45,098 nucleotides of DNA from a virus. Each line of letters opens with the position of its first letter. Positions within the stretch are counted from its first letter, which is position 1. A program made the translations under genes and the position numbers. The notes under the pieces are model-generated. The model was not told where the DNA came from. It worked only from the letters and a program-made list of their open reading frames with translations, and did not search any database. Below, one piece after another: positions 27,664 to 39,716 of this stretch. The stretch covers positions 1 to 45,098 of IMG/VR virus record IMGVR_UViG_3300032236_001251. One strand, given 5' to 3'.

Positions 27664-28317
27664 TTAAAATTCTATTAAACTATAGTATTTCTTCATTTGA
27701 TCAGGTGAACAATGATGATATGTAAAATTTTTATTTACTTCTAAGCTAGTCATGATATCTTGTGATTGCTCGTAAGTATGAACTTGATTAAATCTTTCAT
27801 CAAATTTTATTAAAATTTTATTTCTAAATAGGATTTCGGATAAAGCAACATCTCCATAATTAGTTTCAGTATAATCATATTTTGTAATTTTTTTTATATT
27901 TTTTATTGATATTAAAATTCCTGCTCCGCCATAAACCATCCCTCTTTTTGGTAAAAGCGAAAACATTGGATGTGATCTGCCATAAACAAAATTTTCATCA
28001 AAACCATTTATTTCTTTTTTAAAATAAATTGCATTTAAAAATGTATCGTCATCAACAAATAAAACCCATTTATAATCTAAAGCGTTTTTATTTTTATAAA
28101 AAACTTTTCCTTCTTTTATATCTTTAAGTATTCTAGTTTGTTTTATTACGTTGCTGTCATAATTTGATTCTTTACAAACTTTATAAGTATTATTTTCAAC
28201 ATCTTCATGATCAGAATAGAATAAAGTGTCAATATCTTTGTACCATGTACTCGTAACACCTTCTCTTCTATGCGTAAATCTTTCTGTAGTCATTGACATT
28301 ACTAATATTTCATTCAT
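27664..28317 (-). CDS. Fringe/GT31-like glycosyltransferase (217 aa)
   Basis: The core KWVLFVDDDTFLN places the DxD-type metal motif at residues 89-91; GMVYGGAGILIS and YGDVALSEILFRN follow in the order and spacing of Fringe-like beta-1,3-glycosyltransferases (D.D.Y, YGGAG, DD...G). The N-terminal TTERFTHRREGVTSTWYKDID matches the R...I..TW start. Such enzymes are best known from eukaryotes. Overlaps the UDP-galactopyranose mutase gene by 8 bases, so it may use UDP-Galf or a related donor. Confidence 0.75.
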   Translation of the reverse strand: MNEILVMSMTTERFTHRREGVTSTWYKDIDTLFYSDHEDVENNTYKVCKESNYDSNVIKQTRILKDIKEGKVFYKNKNALDYKWVLFVDDDTFLNAIYFKKEINGFDENFVYGRSHPMFSLLPKRGMVYGGAGILISIKNIKKITKYDYTETNYGDVALSEILFRNKILIKFDERFNQVHTYEQSQDIMTSLEVNKNFTYHHCSPDQMKKYYSLIEF

Positions 28318-29407
28318 AAAGTTTCCTAAAAGTTGATAACGCTGATGCTATTGCCATATGCATATCCAAATATTGATAACTTCCCAACCTACCGCCAAAA
28401 ATTACATTTTTTTCTTTATCAATTAAGTACCTGTATTTTTTTAATATATCCTTATCTTTTTCTGAATTAATTGGATAATAAGGATCATCATTTCTATCAG
28501 CAAACCTAGAATATTCTTTAGCAATTATAGTACCATTATACTCTTTTTCTGAAACAAAATGCTTAAATTCATGAATTCTTGTATATAAGTTTTTTATGTT
28601 TGAATAATTAATAACTGATGTTCCTTGATAATCATTTATTTTATGATATTCAAATTCAAAATCTAAAGTTCTCCAACTAAGATCTCCTTCACAATAATTA
28701 AAATATTTATCAATTGGACCTGTATAAAATATTTTTGAATTTTTAAAATTATCTTTTACATCAAAAAAATCTACATTTAATTCAATTTTTATATTTGAAT
28801 TATCAATCATTTTTTCTGCCCAGATGCCGTAACCATTTAATGGAATACCTTGATATTTATCATCAAAATAATTTATATTAAAATCATATCTTACAGGAAG
28901 CCTAGATATAGTTTCTGGCGGAAGCAATCTTGGATCTGTTTGCCATTGTTTTTCTGTATATCCTTTAATAAAAGCTTCATACAAATCTTTACCTATAAGT
29001 GATATTGCTTTATCTTCTAAATTTTCTGGTGTAATTTGAGATTGAAAATTTAATATCATTTTTTTAGCTTCATCTGGAGACATTTGTTTTTCAAAAAATA
29101 AAGACATTGTAGCCAAATTTATAGGCATTGGGTATATTTTATTATTATAATTAGTCCATACCGTATGTTTATAATTATTAAATTTGGTAAACTTATTGCA
29201 ATATTTCCAGACTTTTTCATTTGAAGTATGAAAGATATGAGATCCATATTTATGTATTTCTACATTTGTTTTTTTATCAAGATAAGAATAAGCATTTCCC
29301 GCTATATGATCTCTTTTATCTATAATTAATACTTTTTTGCCTACTGATGCCAATCTTTCAGCAATTGTAAGGCCGTAAAATCCCGCCCCAACAACTAAAT
29401 ACTCCAT
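28310..29407 (-). CDS. glf: UDP-galactopyranose mutase
   Basis: 365 residues, full family length. N-terminal FAD motif VVGAGFYGLTIAERLA (5-20) and IDKRDHIAGNAYS, then IHKYGSHIFHTSNEKVWKY with the UDP/flavin-contact histidine region, KGYTEKQW near residue 150, RLPVRYDFNINYFDDKYQGIPLNGYG and C-terminal FGGRLGSYQYLDMHMAI. Converts UDP-galactopyranose to UDP-galactofuranose, a building block of actinobacterial arabinogalactan and many surface glycans. With its neighbour it could make a furanose decoration for the fibres or alter the wall. Confidence 0.95.
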   Translation of the reverse strand: MEYLVVGAGFYGLTIAERLASVGKKVLIIDKRDHIAGNAYSYLDKKTNVEIHKYGSHIFHTSNEKVWKYCNKFTKFNNYKHTVWTNYNNKIYPMPINLATMSLFFEKQMSPDEAKKMILNFQSQITPENLEDKAISLIGKDLYEAFIKGYTEKQWQTDPRLLPPETISRLPVRYDFNINYFDDKYQGIPLNGYGIWAEKMIDNSNIKIELNVDFFDVKDNFKNSKIFYTGPIDKYFNYCEGDLSWRTLDFEFEYHKINDYQGTSVINYSNIKNLYTRIHEFKHFVSEKEYNGTIIAKEYSRFADRNDDPYYPINSEKDKDILKKYRYLIDKEKNVIFGGRLGSYQYLDMHMAIASALSTFRKLYE

Positions 29408-32704: not shown

Positions 32705-32708
32705 TTGG

Positions 32709-32779
32709 AGCGGATGACCAGAATTGAACTGGCACTATCTGCTTGGAAGGCAGAGGCACTACCATTATGCAACATCCGC
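32709..32779 (-). tRNA. tRNA-Gly (UCC)
   Basis: Acceptor GCGGATG/CATCCGC perfect, anticodon stem TCTGC/GCAGA, loop CTTCCAA with anticodon TCC, T-arm CCAG TTCAATT CTGG, discriminator T as usual for tRNA-Gly. Four bases separate it from tRNA-Ser. Confidence 0.93.
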
Positions 32780-32897
32780 AAGGGGCTATATACGTATTCC
32801 AGCACCGAATGACGCTGCCCTATCTCACCATAACTTTTACGCTACGGGATATGTATATGTAACTATAACATCCTAAGAAAGTGACGTATATAGCCTT
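32780..32897 (-). ncRNA. 118-nt structured element filling the gap between tRNA-Gly and tRNA-Thr
   Basis: Its ends pair: minus-strand AAGGCTATATACGT with ACGTATATAGCC-CCTT, giving 14 bp with a 2-base bulge. Internal GGATGT/ACATATCC can form another stem. It fills the space between the tRNA 5' end at 32779 and the tRNA 3' end at 32899 almost to the base, so tRNA processing would release it. It has no T-loop GTTCAA, no anticodon arm and no long reading frame. It may be a small RNA comparable in setting to T4 RNAs C and D, or a rearranged tRNA relic. Confidence 0.55.
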
Positions 32898-32898
32898 G

Positions 32899-32970
32899 AG
32901 CCTCCAGTCAGGATTGAACTGACGACCTTCCGCTTACAAGGCGGATGCTCTACCACTGAGCTAAAGAGGC
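32899..32970 (-). tRNA. tRNA-Thr (UGU)
   Basis: Acceptor GCCTCTT/TGGAGGC (one T-G and a T-T at the base), anticodon stem TCCGC/GCGGA, loop CTTGTAA with anticodon TGT, T-arm GTCAG TTCAATC CTGAC. The T-T mismatch at the bottom of the acceptor stem is unusual but the rest is complete. Confidence 0.9.
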
Positions 32971-33724: not shown

Positions 33725-35572
33725 TCAGAGTATCTGCATGCTGTCAACAGGAAATTCATCTTCATCATCATCTATTCCTAAGAAATCCCGCAAACTTGAT
33801 GGCATTTCTTCTTTTTTTGGCATAATTACTGTGTTATTTCTAATTAATCTAGCATCCGATTCTTGACGAAGTTGTTCTAATTCATCTCCAAAAACTCCAG
33901 AATATGTATGTATATCTATTTGTTGATTAGCATCTCTTGGGGTCCATGCTATTGCATTATAAATAGCCCCGCAAACGGCGTCAGAAAGGTCTTTAGAGCC
34001 TTTTCTTGGGTGATCTACCTTATCCTTTACAATTCTTAATTGAAGCAATTCATCTATCAAAAGTTGAATTTTAGGTCCAAATACACGTTCTTCATTTATA
34101 GTCAAAGCCATATCTTCATAATGTTTTTTGGCTACAGAAAGAACTTGGCAATTCATACCATAAGCTTTTAATTGTTCCATCATGTCAAAAGAGTTCCAAC
34201 GGTCAAATGTGACTACCTTAAGATTAAATCCCCGCTCACGTAAACCAATTATATATTCTTTTACTTCAGTAAAGTCAACAGATTTAGATGCTGTAGGGGT
34301 CCAATATCTTACTGCATCTACTACTATTCTTGGTGCAGCTTCTGTCATCTTGTCACCAAATTTCATTTGAACAAATTTTTCTACATGTGCTAATGCTACT
34401 GCACAGTGGTCGTGTTTTTGAGCTAAGTCTACGTGAATATAATAACTTTTTTCTGAATCTGGTTTAAAGTCATCGTCAAAGGCACCGTATTGACTTACAC
34501 CCAGTTTAGTGTTAGAGAATGCTGCTTCAATTTTATCTCTATTTCTAAAGAAGGCGTCGGTGGCATCTGGTGGCATGCAAGCAAAACGTGATAACGCATC
34601 TGTAGGATCTGTATAAAAGTCAATTGTAAAATCTTCAATTTTACGTGTTGGGTTAATTTCCCATGTTGGTCTTTTTAATGCATAAACTCTGGGGATCTTG
34701 TATGAAACAATATGATCTTCTTCCCATTCCATTTCAAATTCATTGCCATCAGTTCCATCTGGAAGTTCTGGATCAACTTTAAATTTATAACTTCTTATTA
34801 CAACTTCTTTTTCTGCCACAACTTCATTATATCTTTGTTGAATATAGTCATTTTTAAAGCGTGGGAAAGAAAGCAAAACTAATTTACCAAAATCTGGAAA
34901 ACGAGAGTTTACAGAAGCACGATACATTTTATAAATACTTGATGCAGTTTTTGCCTGCTCATTTCCAGAAGTTGAGTCCAAGTCAAATCCTGAAATTTCA
35001 TCAAGGATAACAATTAATACGTTATAACCTTCCCAAGATTCTCTTTGTGAGTGTCCTGAGTGTACGGTAATTTCATGATCAAACTCTATGCTATTTGCTT
35101 TAGCAATGTATCTTCCTTGAAACCATGGAGATTTTTCAATACGTTGATTAAATCCTTTAAAGAATACTCGGTTAGCCTGAACTGCGTTAATAGCAATATT
35201 AATAATATCAATAGCGTCCCCTGGTGGCTTTCCAAAATATCTGGCAGGATCTTTTAAGCATAAAAGCAAATGCACTACATATGCACAAGCAATTGTAGAT
35301 GTATAGTCTTTTCCAGAACCTTTGCCTAACTGCAAGATAACTTCATTACAAGTTTGTTTAAATATTTTATTGCCTTCATCTTCACCATAAAGCTTAATTA
35401 AAGTTTCTTTTTTATAAACTTGTGTTGATGCTCTAATCATTGTATATTGATATTCAGATAAAGGTGGCAAACCTAAATAATCTTTACTTGTTACAAACTC
35501 TTCAATAGTTGCTGGCTTTTCATTAAAGTCATCATTTTCAAGAGCATCTAAAAAGATATCAAAATCAGTCAT
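33725..35572 (-). CDS. terL: terminase large subunit
   Basis: 615 residues. ATPase: Walker A GKGSGKD (83-89) after VILQL and Walker B VLIVILDE (185-192) with the catalytic glutamate, followed by the coupling segment VLLSFPRF. Nuclease: YYIHVDLAQKHDHCAVALAH (RNase H-like first Asp), TFDRWNSFDMMEQL and KGSKDLSDAVCGAI with the late catalytic Asp. Packages DNA into proheads and cuts it. GKGSGKD is an accepted variant of the classical GRRSGKT. The small subunit gene overlaps its start by 8 bases. Confidence 0.93.
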   Translation of the reverse strand: MTDFDIFLDALENDDFNEKPATIEEFVTSKDYLGLPPLSEYQYTMIRASTQVYKKETLIKLYGEDEGNKIFKQTCNEVILQLGKGSGKDYTSTIACAYVVHLLLCLKDPARYFGKPPGDAIDIINIAINAVQANRVFFKGFNQRIEKSPWFQGRYIAKANSIEFDHEITVHSGHSQRESWEGYNVLIVILDEISGFDLDSTSGNEQAKTASSIYKMYRASVNSRFPDFGKLVLLSFPRFKNDYIQQRYNEVVAEKEVVIRSYKFKVDPELPDGTDGNEFEMEWEEDHIVSYKIPRVYALKRPTWEINPTRKIEDFTIDFYTDPTDALSRFACMPPDATDAFFRNRDKIEAAFSNTKLGVSQYGAFDDDFKPDSEKSYYIHVDLAQKHDHCAVALAHVEKFVQMKFGDKMTEAAPRIVVDAVRYWTPTASKSVDFTEVKEYIIGLRERGFNLKVVTFDRWNSFDMMEQLKAYGMNCQVLSVAKKHYEDMALTINEERVFGPKIQLLIDELLQLRIVKDKVDHPRKGSKDLSDAVCGAIYNAIAWTPRDANQQIDIHTYSGVFGDELEQLRQESDARLIRNNTVIMPKKEEMPSSLRDFLGIDDDEDEFPVDSMQIL

Positions 35573-36311: not shown

Positions 36312-37142
36312 TTATGCTTTTAAATTTAAAAATTCTTCTAGGGCTATTAATTTATATTTTGGCAGTATGTCTGTGCTTTCTAGGTGATTTCTTTGTATGC
36401 CAAATGAAAAATGACAAAAAATAGTATCTCCAACAATTATATTTGGACTATTTATCATTTTAGATTTATGATGAGAAAGCCAATCTTCATCGTCATAATG
36501 ATCTATCTTGCCTTCAAATTCATTAAACATTTTTCCAGTCCAAGCAACAGCATTAATTGATATTCTTGGAAAACCCTCGGGCTTTATATTTTTCATATAA
36601 AAATGTTCTAAACCAATAGATTCATATTTATTTAAAAATAATCTGTGCAAATCTTCTGCAAATATTGCATCTTTTAATCCAACTTCGTCAAATGCGTCAT
36701 AAGTTACTAGCTTTTCGCTTGATATTATGTTGTTTTTTTGATAATAATGAGAAATTATTGAATTATTTATTATATTTCCAAAAACCAACAAACTTTTATC
36801 ATTAGACTGTCTTTCTTTAAATATTTTGTCAATTGAACCTTTTTCTATAAAACAAATATCATCATCTAACTTTAAATACATGGAGTCTTGATCAATACAG
36901 TATTCATAAAAAGGAACTATAGTTTTTACTGGATAGCCTTTAACTATAGGTAATTTACTAGGTACAGTTTTTATCCAATTATTTTCTTTTTCTAATTGAT
37001 ATATATACTCAACATCATCTTCATTGTCAGTATTTACCCAAAGATGCCACTCGTCAAATTCATTTTTTTTTGTTAAAAGATGCAGATACAGTATCTCTAA
37101 AAATCTAATTCTTCCCGCTGGCGTAATTATAATTCTTTTCAT
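36312..37142 (-). CDS. glycosyltransferase-like protein (276 aa)
   Basis: IIITPAGRIRFLEILYLHLLTKKNEFDEWHLWVNTDNEDD begins a GT-A-like fold, and MYLKLDDDICFIEKGSIDKIF supplies the acidic D.D motif near residue 95. WTGKMFNEFEGKIDHYDDEDWLSHHKSK fits acceptor-side residues. No specific family can be named. Overlaps the next gene by four bases in the sugar operon 36312-39716. Confidence 0.7.
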   Translation of the reverse strand: MKRIIITPAGRIRFLEILYLHLLTKKNEFDEWHLWVNTDNEDDVEYIYQLEKENNWIKTVPSKLPIVKGYPVKTIVPFYEYCIDQDSMYLKLDDDICFIEKGSIDKIFKERQSNDKSLLVFGNIINNSIISHYYQKNNIISSEKLVTYDAFDEVGLKDAIFAEDLHRLFLNKYESIGLEHFYMKNIKPEGFPRISINAVAWTGKMFNEFEGKIDHYDDEDWLSHHKSKMINSPNIIVGDTIFCHFSFGIQRNHLESTDILPKYKLIALEEFLNLKA

Positions 37143-37462
37143 TTATTAATAGCAATCTTTAACAACATTAAATAACCAATTAAATCATCAATGTCGTTAT
37201 CTCCAGCAAAACCCTTATTGTTTTTTATTCTATTAATTTTATCATCAATGCGTACTTTTAATTGCTCAACATTATCTGATGAAGCAAAAATTCTAACTGG
37301 GTTTATGGCAGAGTTGCCGTATGAAATATTTTTTTCTATTAATAGTTGAGCTATTTCATGACAAACACTCCAAATATCTTTTCCTGCAGGAGCTTCCAAT
37401 GAGTGCATATATAGGTCTGAACATCTAAAATCTATAGAATCAGAATATACTGGTTTAAGCAT
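37139..37462 (-). CDS. DUF1599/Nmad1-like protein (107 aa)
   Basis: The ATG at 37462 overlaps the epimerase stop (TAATG). LIEKNISYGNSAINPVRIFASSDNVEQLKVRIDDKINRIKNNKGFAGDNDIDDLIGYLMLLKIA follows the pattern LL..KN..YG.S...P...F......I..RI.DK..RI.......DT..DL.GY, found in nucleotide-modification associated domain 1/MazG-like proteins. It may bind or hydrolyse a modified nucleotide. Confidence 0.7.
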   Translation of the reverse strand: MLKPVYSDSIDFRCSDLYMHSLEAPAGKDIWSVCHEIAQLLIEKNISYGNSAINPVRIFASSDNVEQLKVRIDDKINRIKNNKGFAGDNDIDDLIGYLMLLKIAINK

Positions 37463-38361
37463 TATTTGTTTTCCTTTATCCATTCTTCTAGGGAGACTGT
37501 TGGCATCCATCCAAATGCTGATTTTATCTTTTCTGTATTAGAAAGAGTTTCTTTTGCTTCTCCTGGCCTTTCGGGAATATATTCTATTCTATCAGATATC
37601 ATGTGTGCTATGTCAAATATCGTATAGTTTTTTCCATAACCCACGTTATATGTTTGACCAAATGAAGATAGATCTAAATCATTCATTCCCGCCATAATAT
37701 TAGCTGAAACTGCATCTGCAACATAAGTAAAATCTCTTTTTTGTAAACCATTTCCAACAACAGTTAAAGCTTTTCCCTCTTTATTTTGTTTAATAAATAA
37801 ACCTATAACTGGAGCATACTGTCCTTTTAAAGGTTGGCGTTCCCCATAAACATTAAAATATCTGAGTGCGATTGTTTTAAGTCCATATAGATTAAAATAA
37901 ACTTTTGCAAGATTTTCTCCGAAAACCTTTGCAACAGAATAAGGAGTCAAGCAATCTTCTTTTTGGGTTTCAACATTTGGAAGATCATTTTTTTTGCCAT
38001 ATGCAGAAGAGGTACTTGAAAGAACAACCCTTTTAACATTATTTACTCTTGAAGCTTGCAAAATATTAAATGTGCCAAGTACATTTGTATCTATTGATTT
38101 TTTTGGATTTAATATGGCTGGTTGAATTCTAGCATCTGATGCTAAATGGAAAACCACTTCTACATCTTTAAACAAATCAACAATTTGTTCATAATTGCAA
38201 ATATCATATTTATAATTTTTTGCAGAGGAATTCCAATAAAATTGTTCATTTGATTCTGCACTCTCATTATCAATACAAACTACCTCATGCCCTAAGTATA
38301 TAAGTGTATCTACTAGGTGAGACCCGATAAAACCCGCACCGCCAGTAACTAAAGTTTTCAT
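37462..38361 (-). CDS. NAD-dependent sugar epimerase/dehydratase (299 aa)
   Basis: Extended SDR: VTGGAGFIGSHLVDTLI (residues 4-20) binds NAD, VFHLASDARIQP, SSTSSAYGK and the catalytic YSVAK, plus RYFNVYGERQ. UDP-glucose/galactose 4-epimerase-like enzymes have this set; it is close to the RmlB/GalE class. Could supply UDP-Gal for the galactopyranose mutase. Starts three bases from the methyltransferase gene. Confidence 0.85.
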   Translation of the reverse strand: MKTLVTGGAGFIGSHLVDTLIYLGHEVVCIDNESAESNEQFYWNSSAKNYKYDICNYEQIVDLFKDVEVVFHLASDARIQPAILNPKKSIDTNVLGTFNILQASRVNNVKRVVLSSTSSAYGKKNDLPNVETQKEDCLTPYSVAKVFGENLAKVYFNLYGLKTIALRYFNVYGERQPLKGQYAPVIGLFIKQNKEGKALTVVGNGLQKRDFTYVADAVSANIMAGMNDLDLSSFGQTYNVGYGKNYTIFDIAHMISDRIEYIPERPGEAKETLSNTEKIKSAFGWMPTVSLEEWIKENK

Positions 38362-38364
38362 TTA

Positions 38365-39015
38365 TTAACTCTTTCTTTTTGCATGTATGTCTTTCCAACC
38401 TAATTTTTTTTCTGCTAATTCATAAAACAATTCTTCGGCATCTAGTTCTTTTTCTTTTATATCTTCCCATATTGGTCCTGCAGAATGATAAGGAAATTTA
38501 TCTCCATATATACTATTTATACTTGCACCGTCCAAAAGCTTATAACTTTTATATTGTTCAGATGAAACTAGAAGGCTAAAAACTTTTACATCATGACATT
38601 CAGCAGATATATAATCTGGATAAATTTTATTTTGAAACAAATCTTTAATTACAAAAAAATCCATATGCTCAACATCAATTTTTATATAGTTTGGCTCACC
38701 AAATTCAAACACAATATCTGAAGCTTTTTTTGAAGGCAACGTTACTAATTTGTAATTTTCAGGGTCTTTTGGTAACACTGCACTACTTAAAACATCATTA
38801 TCTTTGTGAATATAAAAATCAACATTATTTTCAAATTCAGATAAAACACAATTAACAACAACTAGGCGGTTATTCTCTATCTCTTTTTTAAATTTATTTT
38901 TTATTTGCTCTGTCATGGCAGGATTTGCATCTACTGCTACTATTTTATCAAACTTGCTAAAATAATAAGGAATGTTGATTCCATTATTTGCTCCAAAATC
39001 ATATACAATCTTCAT
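38365..39015 (-). CDS. FkbM-type methyltransferase (216 aa)
   Basis: IVYDFGANNGINIPYYFSKFDKIVAVDANPAMTEQIKNKF is the SAM-binding core (DFGAN.G, VDANP); NYIKIDVEHMDFFVIKDL matches the FkbM (K.D.EG.E) catalytic-side motif. FkbM enzymes methylate sugars or polyketides. In this cluster, capping or decorating a glycan is the likely job. Confidence 0.82.
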   Translation of the reverse strand: MKIVYDFGANNGINIPYYFSKFDKIVAVDANPAMTEQIKNKFKKEIENNRLVVVNCVLSEFENNVDFYIHKDNDVLSSAVLPKDPENYKLVTLPSKKASDIVFEFGEPNYIKIDVEHMDFFVIKDLFQNKIYPDYISAECHDVKVFSLLVSSEQYKSYKLLDGASINSIYGDKFPYHSAGPIWEDIKEKELDAEELFYELAEKKLGWKDIHAKRKS

Positions 39016-39716
39016 TATATATCAGATGGCTTTATATCATAGGGGTAATCATATTTTTCTTGACCTGGCTCCCCGCCCCATTTTTTAGAATAATGATCAT
39101 AAATATTTTTTATTTGAGAATCCCATAAAGATTGCTCTCTTTCATTTTTTAGTGTTGCTGAACCAAAATGTGAAACTCCACCAACACGGTCCATTGGAAC
39201 GTAAGTTATTTCTCTATCACCTAGTTCTTTTATAACATAGCCTAAAGATCTTACTCTTCTATAATAATCGTTGTCTAGCAGATATCCGTTTTGCTGAGTG
39301 GGCCAATTTTCATCTCCCCAAACACCTATCTTTTCAAAAGCTTTTGTATTGAAAGCGCACAAAACATCATAGTTTGTAAATATAACGCCCCAGTTTTCTG
39401 AACATGACTCTGCATACTTTACTAATTCAATATCTGTGTCATCGTGAACTTGACCATCATTATGCATAAATGAATAAAAATTATATTCATTATCAATAGC
39501 ATATTGACGCATTATGTTTTGTGTTTCAGTAAAAGTCATTCTTCTTTCAGGTTGCCAAATTCTAAATTGTGTTCCAGAGTAAACGCCTTCTGGTATTTCT
39601 TGCTCTGAATTATTAAAAATAATATATTCATCATACAAATCCAATTTAATTCCTTTTACTGCTTTTTCCAATAAATCAAATCGGTTTACTACTGGAATAA
39701 ATATAAATTTTTTCAC
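39015..39716 (-). CDS. GT-A glycosyltransferase-like protein (233 aa)
   Basis: GTG start overlapping the HTH gene stop (GTGA). FIFIPVVNRFDLLEKAVKGIKLDLYDEYIIFNNSEQEIPEG opens a family 2-like fold; SFMHNDGQVHDDTDIELV carries the acidic motif, and WPTQQNGYLLDNDYYRRVRSLGYVI fits the acceptor-side ED/D..Y..R..R.G pattern. Sugar donor unknown. Confidence 0.75.
   Translation of the reverse strand: MKKFIFIPVVNRFDLLEKAVKGIKLDLYDEYIIFNNSEQEIPEGVYSGTQFRIWQPERRMTFTETQNIMRQYAIDNEYNFYSFMHNDGQVHDDTDIELVKYAESCSENWGVIFTNYDVLCAFNTKAFEKIGVWGDENWPTQQNGYLLDNDYYRRVRSLGYVIKELGDREITYVPMDRVGGVSHFGSATLKNEREQSLWDSQIKNIYDHYSKKWGGEPGQEKYDYPYDIKPSDI

Follow-up and report, generated by a model that had tools for sequence, protein, structure and literature searches.

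In a virus record from IMG/VR (45,098 bases), analysed as a whole and called the window below, we found between two tRNA genes a 118-nt element that is, close to certainly, a member of a new conserved structured RNA family. The most conserved part of this RNA is complementary to helix 69 (H69) of 23S rRNA, and a hairpin with the same core recurs directly behind capsid genes; both observations go beyond a preliminary description of this DNA. Judging from these sequences, we see an even chance that the element is an RNA that pairs with H69 of the host 50S subunit, acting in trans here and in cis in capsid mRNAs.

An RNA family in phage tRNA clusters

Read along the minus strand, the gene order is tRNA-Asn, a small gene, tRNA-Met, tRNA-Thr, the element, tRNA-Gly and tRNA-Ser (tRNAs predicted by ARAGORN; Table 1). 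The preliminary description had placed the element tightly between tRNA-Gly and tRNA-Thr, and the ARAGORN borders indeed abut it on both sides; the one base by which it was said to be separated from tRNA-Thr is, strictly, C32898, the single base past the Thr discriminator. Since the terminase of the window is 66% identical to those of Streptomyces phages, Francob and Gilson among them, the host of this phage is likely actinobacterial. Elsewhere in the window, positions 28310-29407 and 36312-39716 carry genes for UDP-galactopyranose mutase, a nucleotide-sugar epimerase and a glycosyltransferase.

Table 1 Coordinates of the RNA element, its parts, its neighbours and the related capsid-UTR hairpin
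Feature	Position	Strand	Basis or remark
Structured RNA element, 118 nt	32780..32897	-	5' end 32897, 3' end 32780; R1 126.8 bits
tRNA-Thr(UGU), upstream neighbour	32898..32970	-	ARAGORN
tRNA-Gly(UCC), downstream neighbour	32706..32779	-	ARAGORN
Terminase large subunit	33725..35572	-	PHROG terminase match
P1 closing helix, 5' strand GGCUAUAUACGU	32884..32895	-	12 pairs, 100% paired in family
P1 closing helix, 3' strand ACGUAUAUAGCC	32784..32795	-	MFE fold, covariation
P2 hairpin, 5' outer strand GGAUGU	32868..32873	-	MFE
P2 hairpin, 3' outer strand AUAUCC	32847..32852	-	MFE; varies among members, without column-wise covariation demonstrated
P3 hairpin, 5' strand CGUAGC	32841..32846	-	R1 helix 2 (7-pair version)
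P3 hairpin, 3' strand GUUAUG	32829..32834	-	Covariation; family loop GUAAGA
P4 hairpin, 5' strand CAGC	32814..32817	-	88% of cells paired
P4 hairpin, 3' strand GCUG	32800..32803	-	R1 structure
Invariant core CUUAGGAUGUUAUAGUUAC	32859..32877	-	Complementary to 23S rRNA helix 69 and adjoining CCUAAG
Capsid-UTR hairpin CUUAGG..GUUAUAGUUAC and terminator	L328-L407, part of L408-L487		Directly after capsid stop codon

Folded as RNA of the tRNA strand, the element reaches a minimum free energy (MFE) of -38.8 kcal/mol, compared with -26.1 ± 3.5 kcal/mol in dinucleotide shuffles (z -3.65), and none of 200 such shuffles folds as well. Its ends, described before as a 14-bp stem, do pair; the continuous helix, however, comprises 12 pairs (GGCUAUAUACGU/ACGUAUAUAGCC), with extra pairs between the AAGG and CCUU outside P1 possible only across a bulge.

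Relatives were fetched by terminase only, without reference to the element, which yielded 80 IMG/VR loci. Many of these hold homologous sequence between tRNA genes, in a space of 82-134 nt that mostly precedes tRNA-Gly. A covariance model of the tRNA-cluster RNA family (R1), searched in 81 sources (the window and the 80 loci), matches in 57 of them at 46-131 bits, and several of the R1-negative sources are contigs that stop short of the tRNA cluster or break off within it. Such a covariance-model check on relatives had been proposed beforehand; it returned compensatory double changes at 11 of the 12 pairs of P1 (for example, GGCUAUAUACG/CGUAUAUAGCC versus GAGACUACAGAUGG/CCAUCUGUAGUUCUC), which is paired in 100% of cells of the family alignment. 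P3 is paired in 78% of cells, with both sides changed in six of seven pairs, and P4 in 88%, with small variation. The covariation score of the whole structure is 0.443, as against 0.198 ± 0.010 for shuffled alignments and at most 0.105 for slid versions. A pseudoknot between GGAUG and the CAUUC loop of P4 was considered and set aside: it is feasible in many members, with both sides too conserved for a test.

The same structural picture emerged from a second locus set, found via the core pattern. In a short form of 82-85 nt (L074, L063, L025), P1 and the core are kept and P3-P4 are absent. The seven longer records that carry the family have one copy each. Some members lie apart from tRNA genes (L038, L050, L054, L173, L133, L179); where tRNAs flank the element they vary, with Leu, Met, Gln or Thr upstream and Gly, Gln or Thr downstream. 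The element is absent from Streptomyces phages Samisti12, Moab, Coruscant and Angela and from phage DSL-LC01, and no window-type core was found among the phage isolates of INPHARED, so the family is so far known only from uncultured phages. In a scan with the 4227 models of Rfam release 15, only the flanking tRNAs matched at gathering score, and the best sub-threshold match to the element reached 11.7 bits (E=9). The earlier surmise of a new phage small RNA is thus borne out as regards a new family, by the R1 matches, the P1 covariation and the lack of an Rfam match.

The tRNA clusters of the relatives hold further conserved stretches. A second RNA-like family of 153-172 nt (L003:13038-13206, L011:7378-7547, L026:4142-4313, L038:5808-5960, L054:3797-3949) shares the invariant blocks ATCTGAACAAT, GCATCATACGAAG, GTTCAG, GGAGATTGCTCTGC and ACAGCCA; the two loci scanned with Rfam (L003, L011) gave no match, and the family has no clear complementarity to rRNA. 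Another conserved noncoding stretch, the third, measures 140-162 nt and lies between tRNA genes (L008:6423-6562, L011:7623-7784), with TTGTCnGAGCACTCGG in common. No clear rRNA complementarity was seen in the F2 and F3 RNAs from these tRNA clusters.

Complementarity of the core and its recurrence behind capsid genes

The most conserved stretch of the family has the form CUUAG-(spacer)-UAUAGUUAC and is present in the window (Table 1). In the minimum-energy folds of 45 of 64 members, its GUUAC occupies a simple hairpin loop, and the five GUUAC bases have a mean pairing probability of 0.12-0.21. The reverse complement of the core, GTAACTATAAC-AT-CCTAAG, closely resembles the actinobacterial 23S rRNA sequence GTAACTATAACCATCCTAAG (L203), the sequence of helix 69 and its adjoining strand (~1910-1929 in E. 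coli numbering). Helix 69 is a near-universal intersubunit bridge that touches tRNAs and the decoding centre.

This complementarity was noticed after the fact, and we compared it with shuffled sequences. A mean complementarity profile of 40 elements along an Arthrobacter rRNA operon has one outstanding peak, at H69 (score 40.0), with 30.1 at the next best site and 25.8 in the best of 20 shuffled sets. At H69 of Arthrobacter 23S rRNA, the window core alone scores 39, which was reached by 1 of 3000 shuffles; for the b-type core, none of 3000 shuffles reached the score. RNAduplex gives -25.6 kcal/mol with H69 for the window-type core and -21 to -28 kcal/mol across the tRNA-cluster group, whose cores mostly pair better with H69 of the actinobacterial type (CCAUCC) than with that of the gamma type (CGGUCC). 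All tRNA-cluster members are imperfect H69 complements with one-base bulges or mismatches, and the spacer opposite the H69 3' strand is variable, with neither its length nor its sequence following the rRNA. Substitutions at pairing positions extend beyond wobble-compatible ones (G to A, C or U within CUUAGG; UAUAU and UAUAA variants), and the natural core variants comprise two wobble-compatible changes (CUUGG, UGUAG) and several mismatching ones. The imperfect complementarity and the substitutions unconstrained by the rRNA weaken the case for pairing; covariation with H69 cannot be demonstrated because the target is nearly invariant.

Several other resemblances were tried and rejected. A second rRNA site (GUGCAG versus 23S CUGCAC) was not significant. 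A mimic of the GTPase-associated centre (L11-binding), suggested by the shared words AGGATGTT and GCGTAAnAG, was dropped, the GUAAGA loop being present in only part of the family, and the likeness to the Pistol ribozyme amounts to a similar word with helices that do not match. Antisense to the sarcin-ricin loop, considered as a parallel class, gave 10 matches, those inspected looking like coding sequence or 23S itself; for three 15-nt exact antisense matches (L618, L620, L622), one frame gives by eye the shared peptide GPLVL.ARV.RTV, and on that inspection we read them as a coding coincidence rather than RNA. As separate observations, the 23S rRNA of several Chloroflexota, Omnitrophota and others (L211, L215, L217, L240, L262, L286) has an H69 stem of the CUG/CAG type, of which the core TTAGGACTGTTATAGTTAC is an exact complement, and in many cyanobacterial genomes (L209, L212, L220, L225, L226, L235, L236, L249 and other contigs) sequences similar to (T)CATTTAGGATTGCTATAGTTAC occur in places other than 23S genes, as a repeat or an element resembling a promoter.

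Searching IMG/VR with the core pattern returned tRNA-cluster elements, a few P1-enclosed elements near other genes, and a large second class in which the hairpin follows the major capsid gene, about a dozen bases or less from its stop codon, and precedes a terminator. The raw number of matches was rejected as evidence, the reversed pattern being abundant too, and genomic context was compared instead: among the matches listed, 12 of 118 fall inside long ORFs, as against 99 of 120 for the reversed pattern. Within a panel of 16 records, the motif occurs once in 12 and twice in none, and the reversed control pattern does not occur.

To avoid motif selection, capsid genes were then fetched by protein and not by motif, giving 78 and 79 3' UTRs from two capsid families. 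The motif is present in 67 of the 78 UTRs of the first family, with diverged versions in most others, and in 13 of the 79 of the second, together with a few UGUAG variants and many UTRs without it. In the capsid-UTR hairpin the 3' arm co-varies, whereas little change is seen in the 5' arm (CUUAGG) or the loop (GUUAUAGUUAC); one arm and the loop fixed and the other arm free is a pattern that points to a constraint, of whichever kind, from outside the hairpin. Scored against Salmonella 23S rRNA, the capsid-UTR core reaches 49 (null, 23.9 ± 2.5; 0 of 3000 shuffles), and most such cores give -27 to -33 kcal/mol with E. coli-type H69 (RNAduplex). They mostly prefer CGGUCC over CCAUCC H69, a match of type that is only suggestive. 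The idea that the spacers of these hairpins vary only in rRNA-compatible ways held in motif-selected sequences and was abandoned, contradicted by GUA, CUA, GAA and GUCC in the protein-selected set.

Two further occurrences were noted. In the human-gut phage scaffold MT835492.1 (L204:2490-2660), an AT-rich noncoding stretch has, close to its beginning, a hairpin with the core GGTTAGGACTGTTATAGTTACGAATTTCACGATTAACC and closes with a terminator-like hairpin; it may be another small RNA. In Streptomyces phage Samisti12, the sequence CTTAGGATGGTATAATTAC lies in an intergenic position and could be a promoter.

Proposed action and alternative explanations

In the reading that we favour, the element is the gene for a structured phage RNA of ~118 nt, presumably co-transcribed with the tRNAs. 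Processing of the tRNA-Thr 3' end would release its 5' end, and the RNase P cut at the 5' end of tRNA-Gly its 3' end. P1 would clamp the ends of the RNA, and a small hairpin inside would present the invariant loop together with its 5' flank (CUUAG..UAUAGUUAC). The core would base-pair with H69 of the host 23S rRNA, loop to loop first and then into CCUAAG, so that the RNA docks on free 50S subunits; the tRNA-cluster RNA would do so in trans, and the equivalent hairpin of capsid mRNAs in cis, just past the capsid stop codon. As to the outcome, we can offer guesses: subunit joining of idle 50S may be hindered or modulated, ribosomes may be held near the capsid mRNA, or H69 may be shielded from a nuclease or modifying enzyme. 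For cleavage of helix 70 by MazF as the thing to be countered, no supporting paper was found in the literature searched. A wider reading, which we hold tentatively and at somewhat less than even odds, is that a one-per-genome phage RNA module targets host H69, in trans in the actinobacteriophage relatives and in cis in the capsid mRNAs of unrelated phages.

Against pairing speaks that H69 is folded, modified and buried in the 70S ribosome. A synthetic antisense PNA to H69, by the account in PMC7038079 (Kulik et al.), stops the growth of E. coli, and H69 can therefore be targeted.

The main rival to H69 pairing is a protein-binding loop. The core would then be a recognition site for a phage or host protein, or else a self-contained tertiary motif, and its match to H69 a coincidence; the RNA would serve as a scaffold or decoy, and the partner of the hairpin in capsid mRNAs would be a stabilising or regulatory protein. 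Several features are in keeping with this: the core is near-invariant, GUUAC forms part of a hairpin loop both in most members and in the hairpins of capsid UTRs, as in protein-binding loops, and the substitutions in the core ignore rRNA pairing rules. The fixed CUUAGG with its varying partner suits a protein as well as it suits rRNA. What such a site leaves unexplained is that two conserved blocks match adjacent 23S blocks in the right order, and we regard it as possible but the less probable account.

The flush position between tRNA genes in most relatives would also fit a role in cis for the tRNA transcript, as a spacer that guides tRNA folding or processing or stabilises the precursor. This is improbable given the members away from tRNA genes, the differing flanking tRNAs, the conserved core and the other tRNA pairs of these clusters, which need no spacer. 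Even less can be said for a cis-regulatory element (a riboswitch, attenuator or self-cleaving ribozyme): the fold is compact and multi-helix with a conserved core, and some members lie upstream of a gene (L133, L110), but Rfam gives no match, a tRNA and not a gene comes directly next in most loci, and no expression platform or cleavage-site signature was seen, which makes this very unlikely.

Hardly any weight, slightly less again, goes to a DNA-level signal, namely an extended -10 promoter (TGnTATAGT) within the cluster. TG-N-TATAGT is similar to an extended -10 element, and Samisti12 has TGGTATAATTAC upstream of a hairpin. However, the covarying strands of P1 flank the motif on either side, so the RNA spans it; the capsid-UTR stems, too, covary across it, and in many members TG and TATA are two bases apart (TGGATATAG).

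Despite its location in a tRNA cluster, the element is not a decayed or intron-bearing tRNA, and the chance that it is a small ORF is likewise negligible: a tRNA model gave no match down to E=10, ARAGORN with introns allowed found no tRNA inside it, the strong conservation speaks against decay, its stop-free stretches are short with no ORF among them, and element lengths in relatives fall in all three classes modulo 3 with no conserved frame. The same searches uphold the preliminary description, which had noted the lack of tRNA arms and of a reading frame and had named a decayed tRNA with intron as the alternative to be checked.

Relation to known RNAs

Phage tRNA clusters have been listed as holding stable RNAs of unexplained role since T4. 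With the family described here, one of these RNAs now has a conserved structure and dozens of relatives, along with a core that can be measured and a specific, testable candidate target on the ribosome. If the pairing is true, phages would handle host ribosomes by RNA, by way of RNA-based ribosome control or protection, a strategy that the literature searched was not found to describe; should the pairing prove false, what stands is a phage RNA family that is new and supported by covariation, together with the recurrent hairpin of capsid mRNAs.

The parallel drawn earlier with the stable RNAs of T4 holds for the position and not for the sequence. Like the element, rnaC and rnaD (species 1 and 2 stable RNAs) are small phage RNAs, of 119-139 nt, in a tRNA cluster, although rnaD sits between rnaC and tRNA-Arg and not between two tRNAs. 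R1, run over the T4 tRNA cluster with filters off, gave no match in either RNA (best 14.4 bits, elsewhere), and neither has rRNA complementarity beyond chance. The function of rnaC and rnaD was still listed as unknown in 2022 (PMC9697503). Phage phiKZ likewise encodes noncoding RNAs, detected by Grad-seq and one of them ~100 nt long (PMC8545117), in a different phage and host; the comparison is by description. In its way of working, the proposed RNA can be compared with the antisense H69 PNA (Kulik et al. 2017, via PMC7038079), which as described there is likewise an H69-complementary oligomer and inhibits growth; the PNA is synthetic and not a gene, and the phage RNA exceeds it in length, is structured and matches H69 only imperfectly.

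Full-text searches of open-access papers turned up no phage RNA described as having complementarity to 23S rRNA, and we rate both the RNA family and its proposed mode of action as being without known counterpart. Should only the family be real and the core bind a protein, it would count as one more kind of phage tRNA-cluster RNA, itself a loose group. Pairing of mRNA elements with small-subunit rRNA is known from calicivirus TURBS and from the Shine-Dalgarno/anti-Shine-Dalgarno interaction. The capsid-UTR version would work like these, in that base pairing close to a stop codon would tether the mRNA to a ribosomal subunit. It would differ from them in its target, proposed to lie on the large subunit, and the element of the window would differ by acting in trans.
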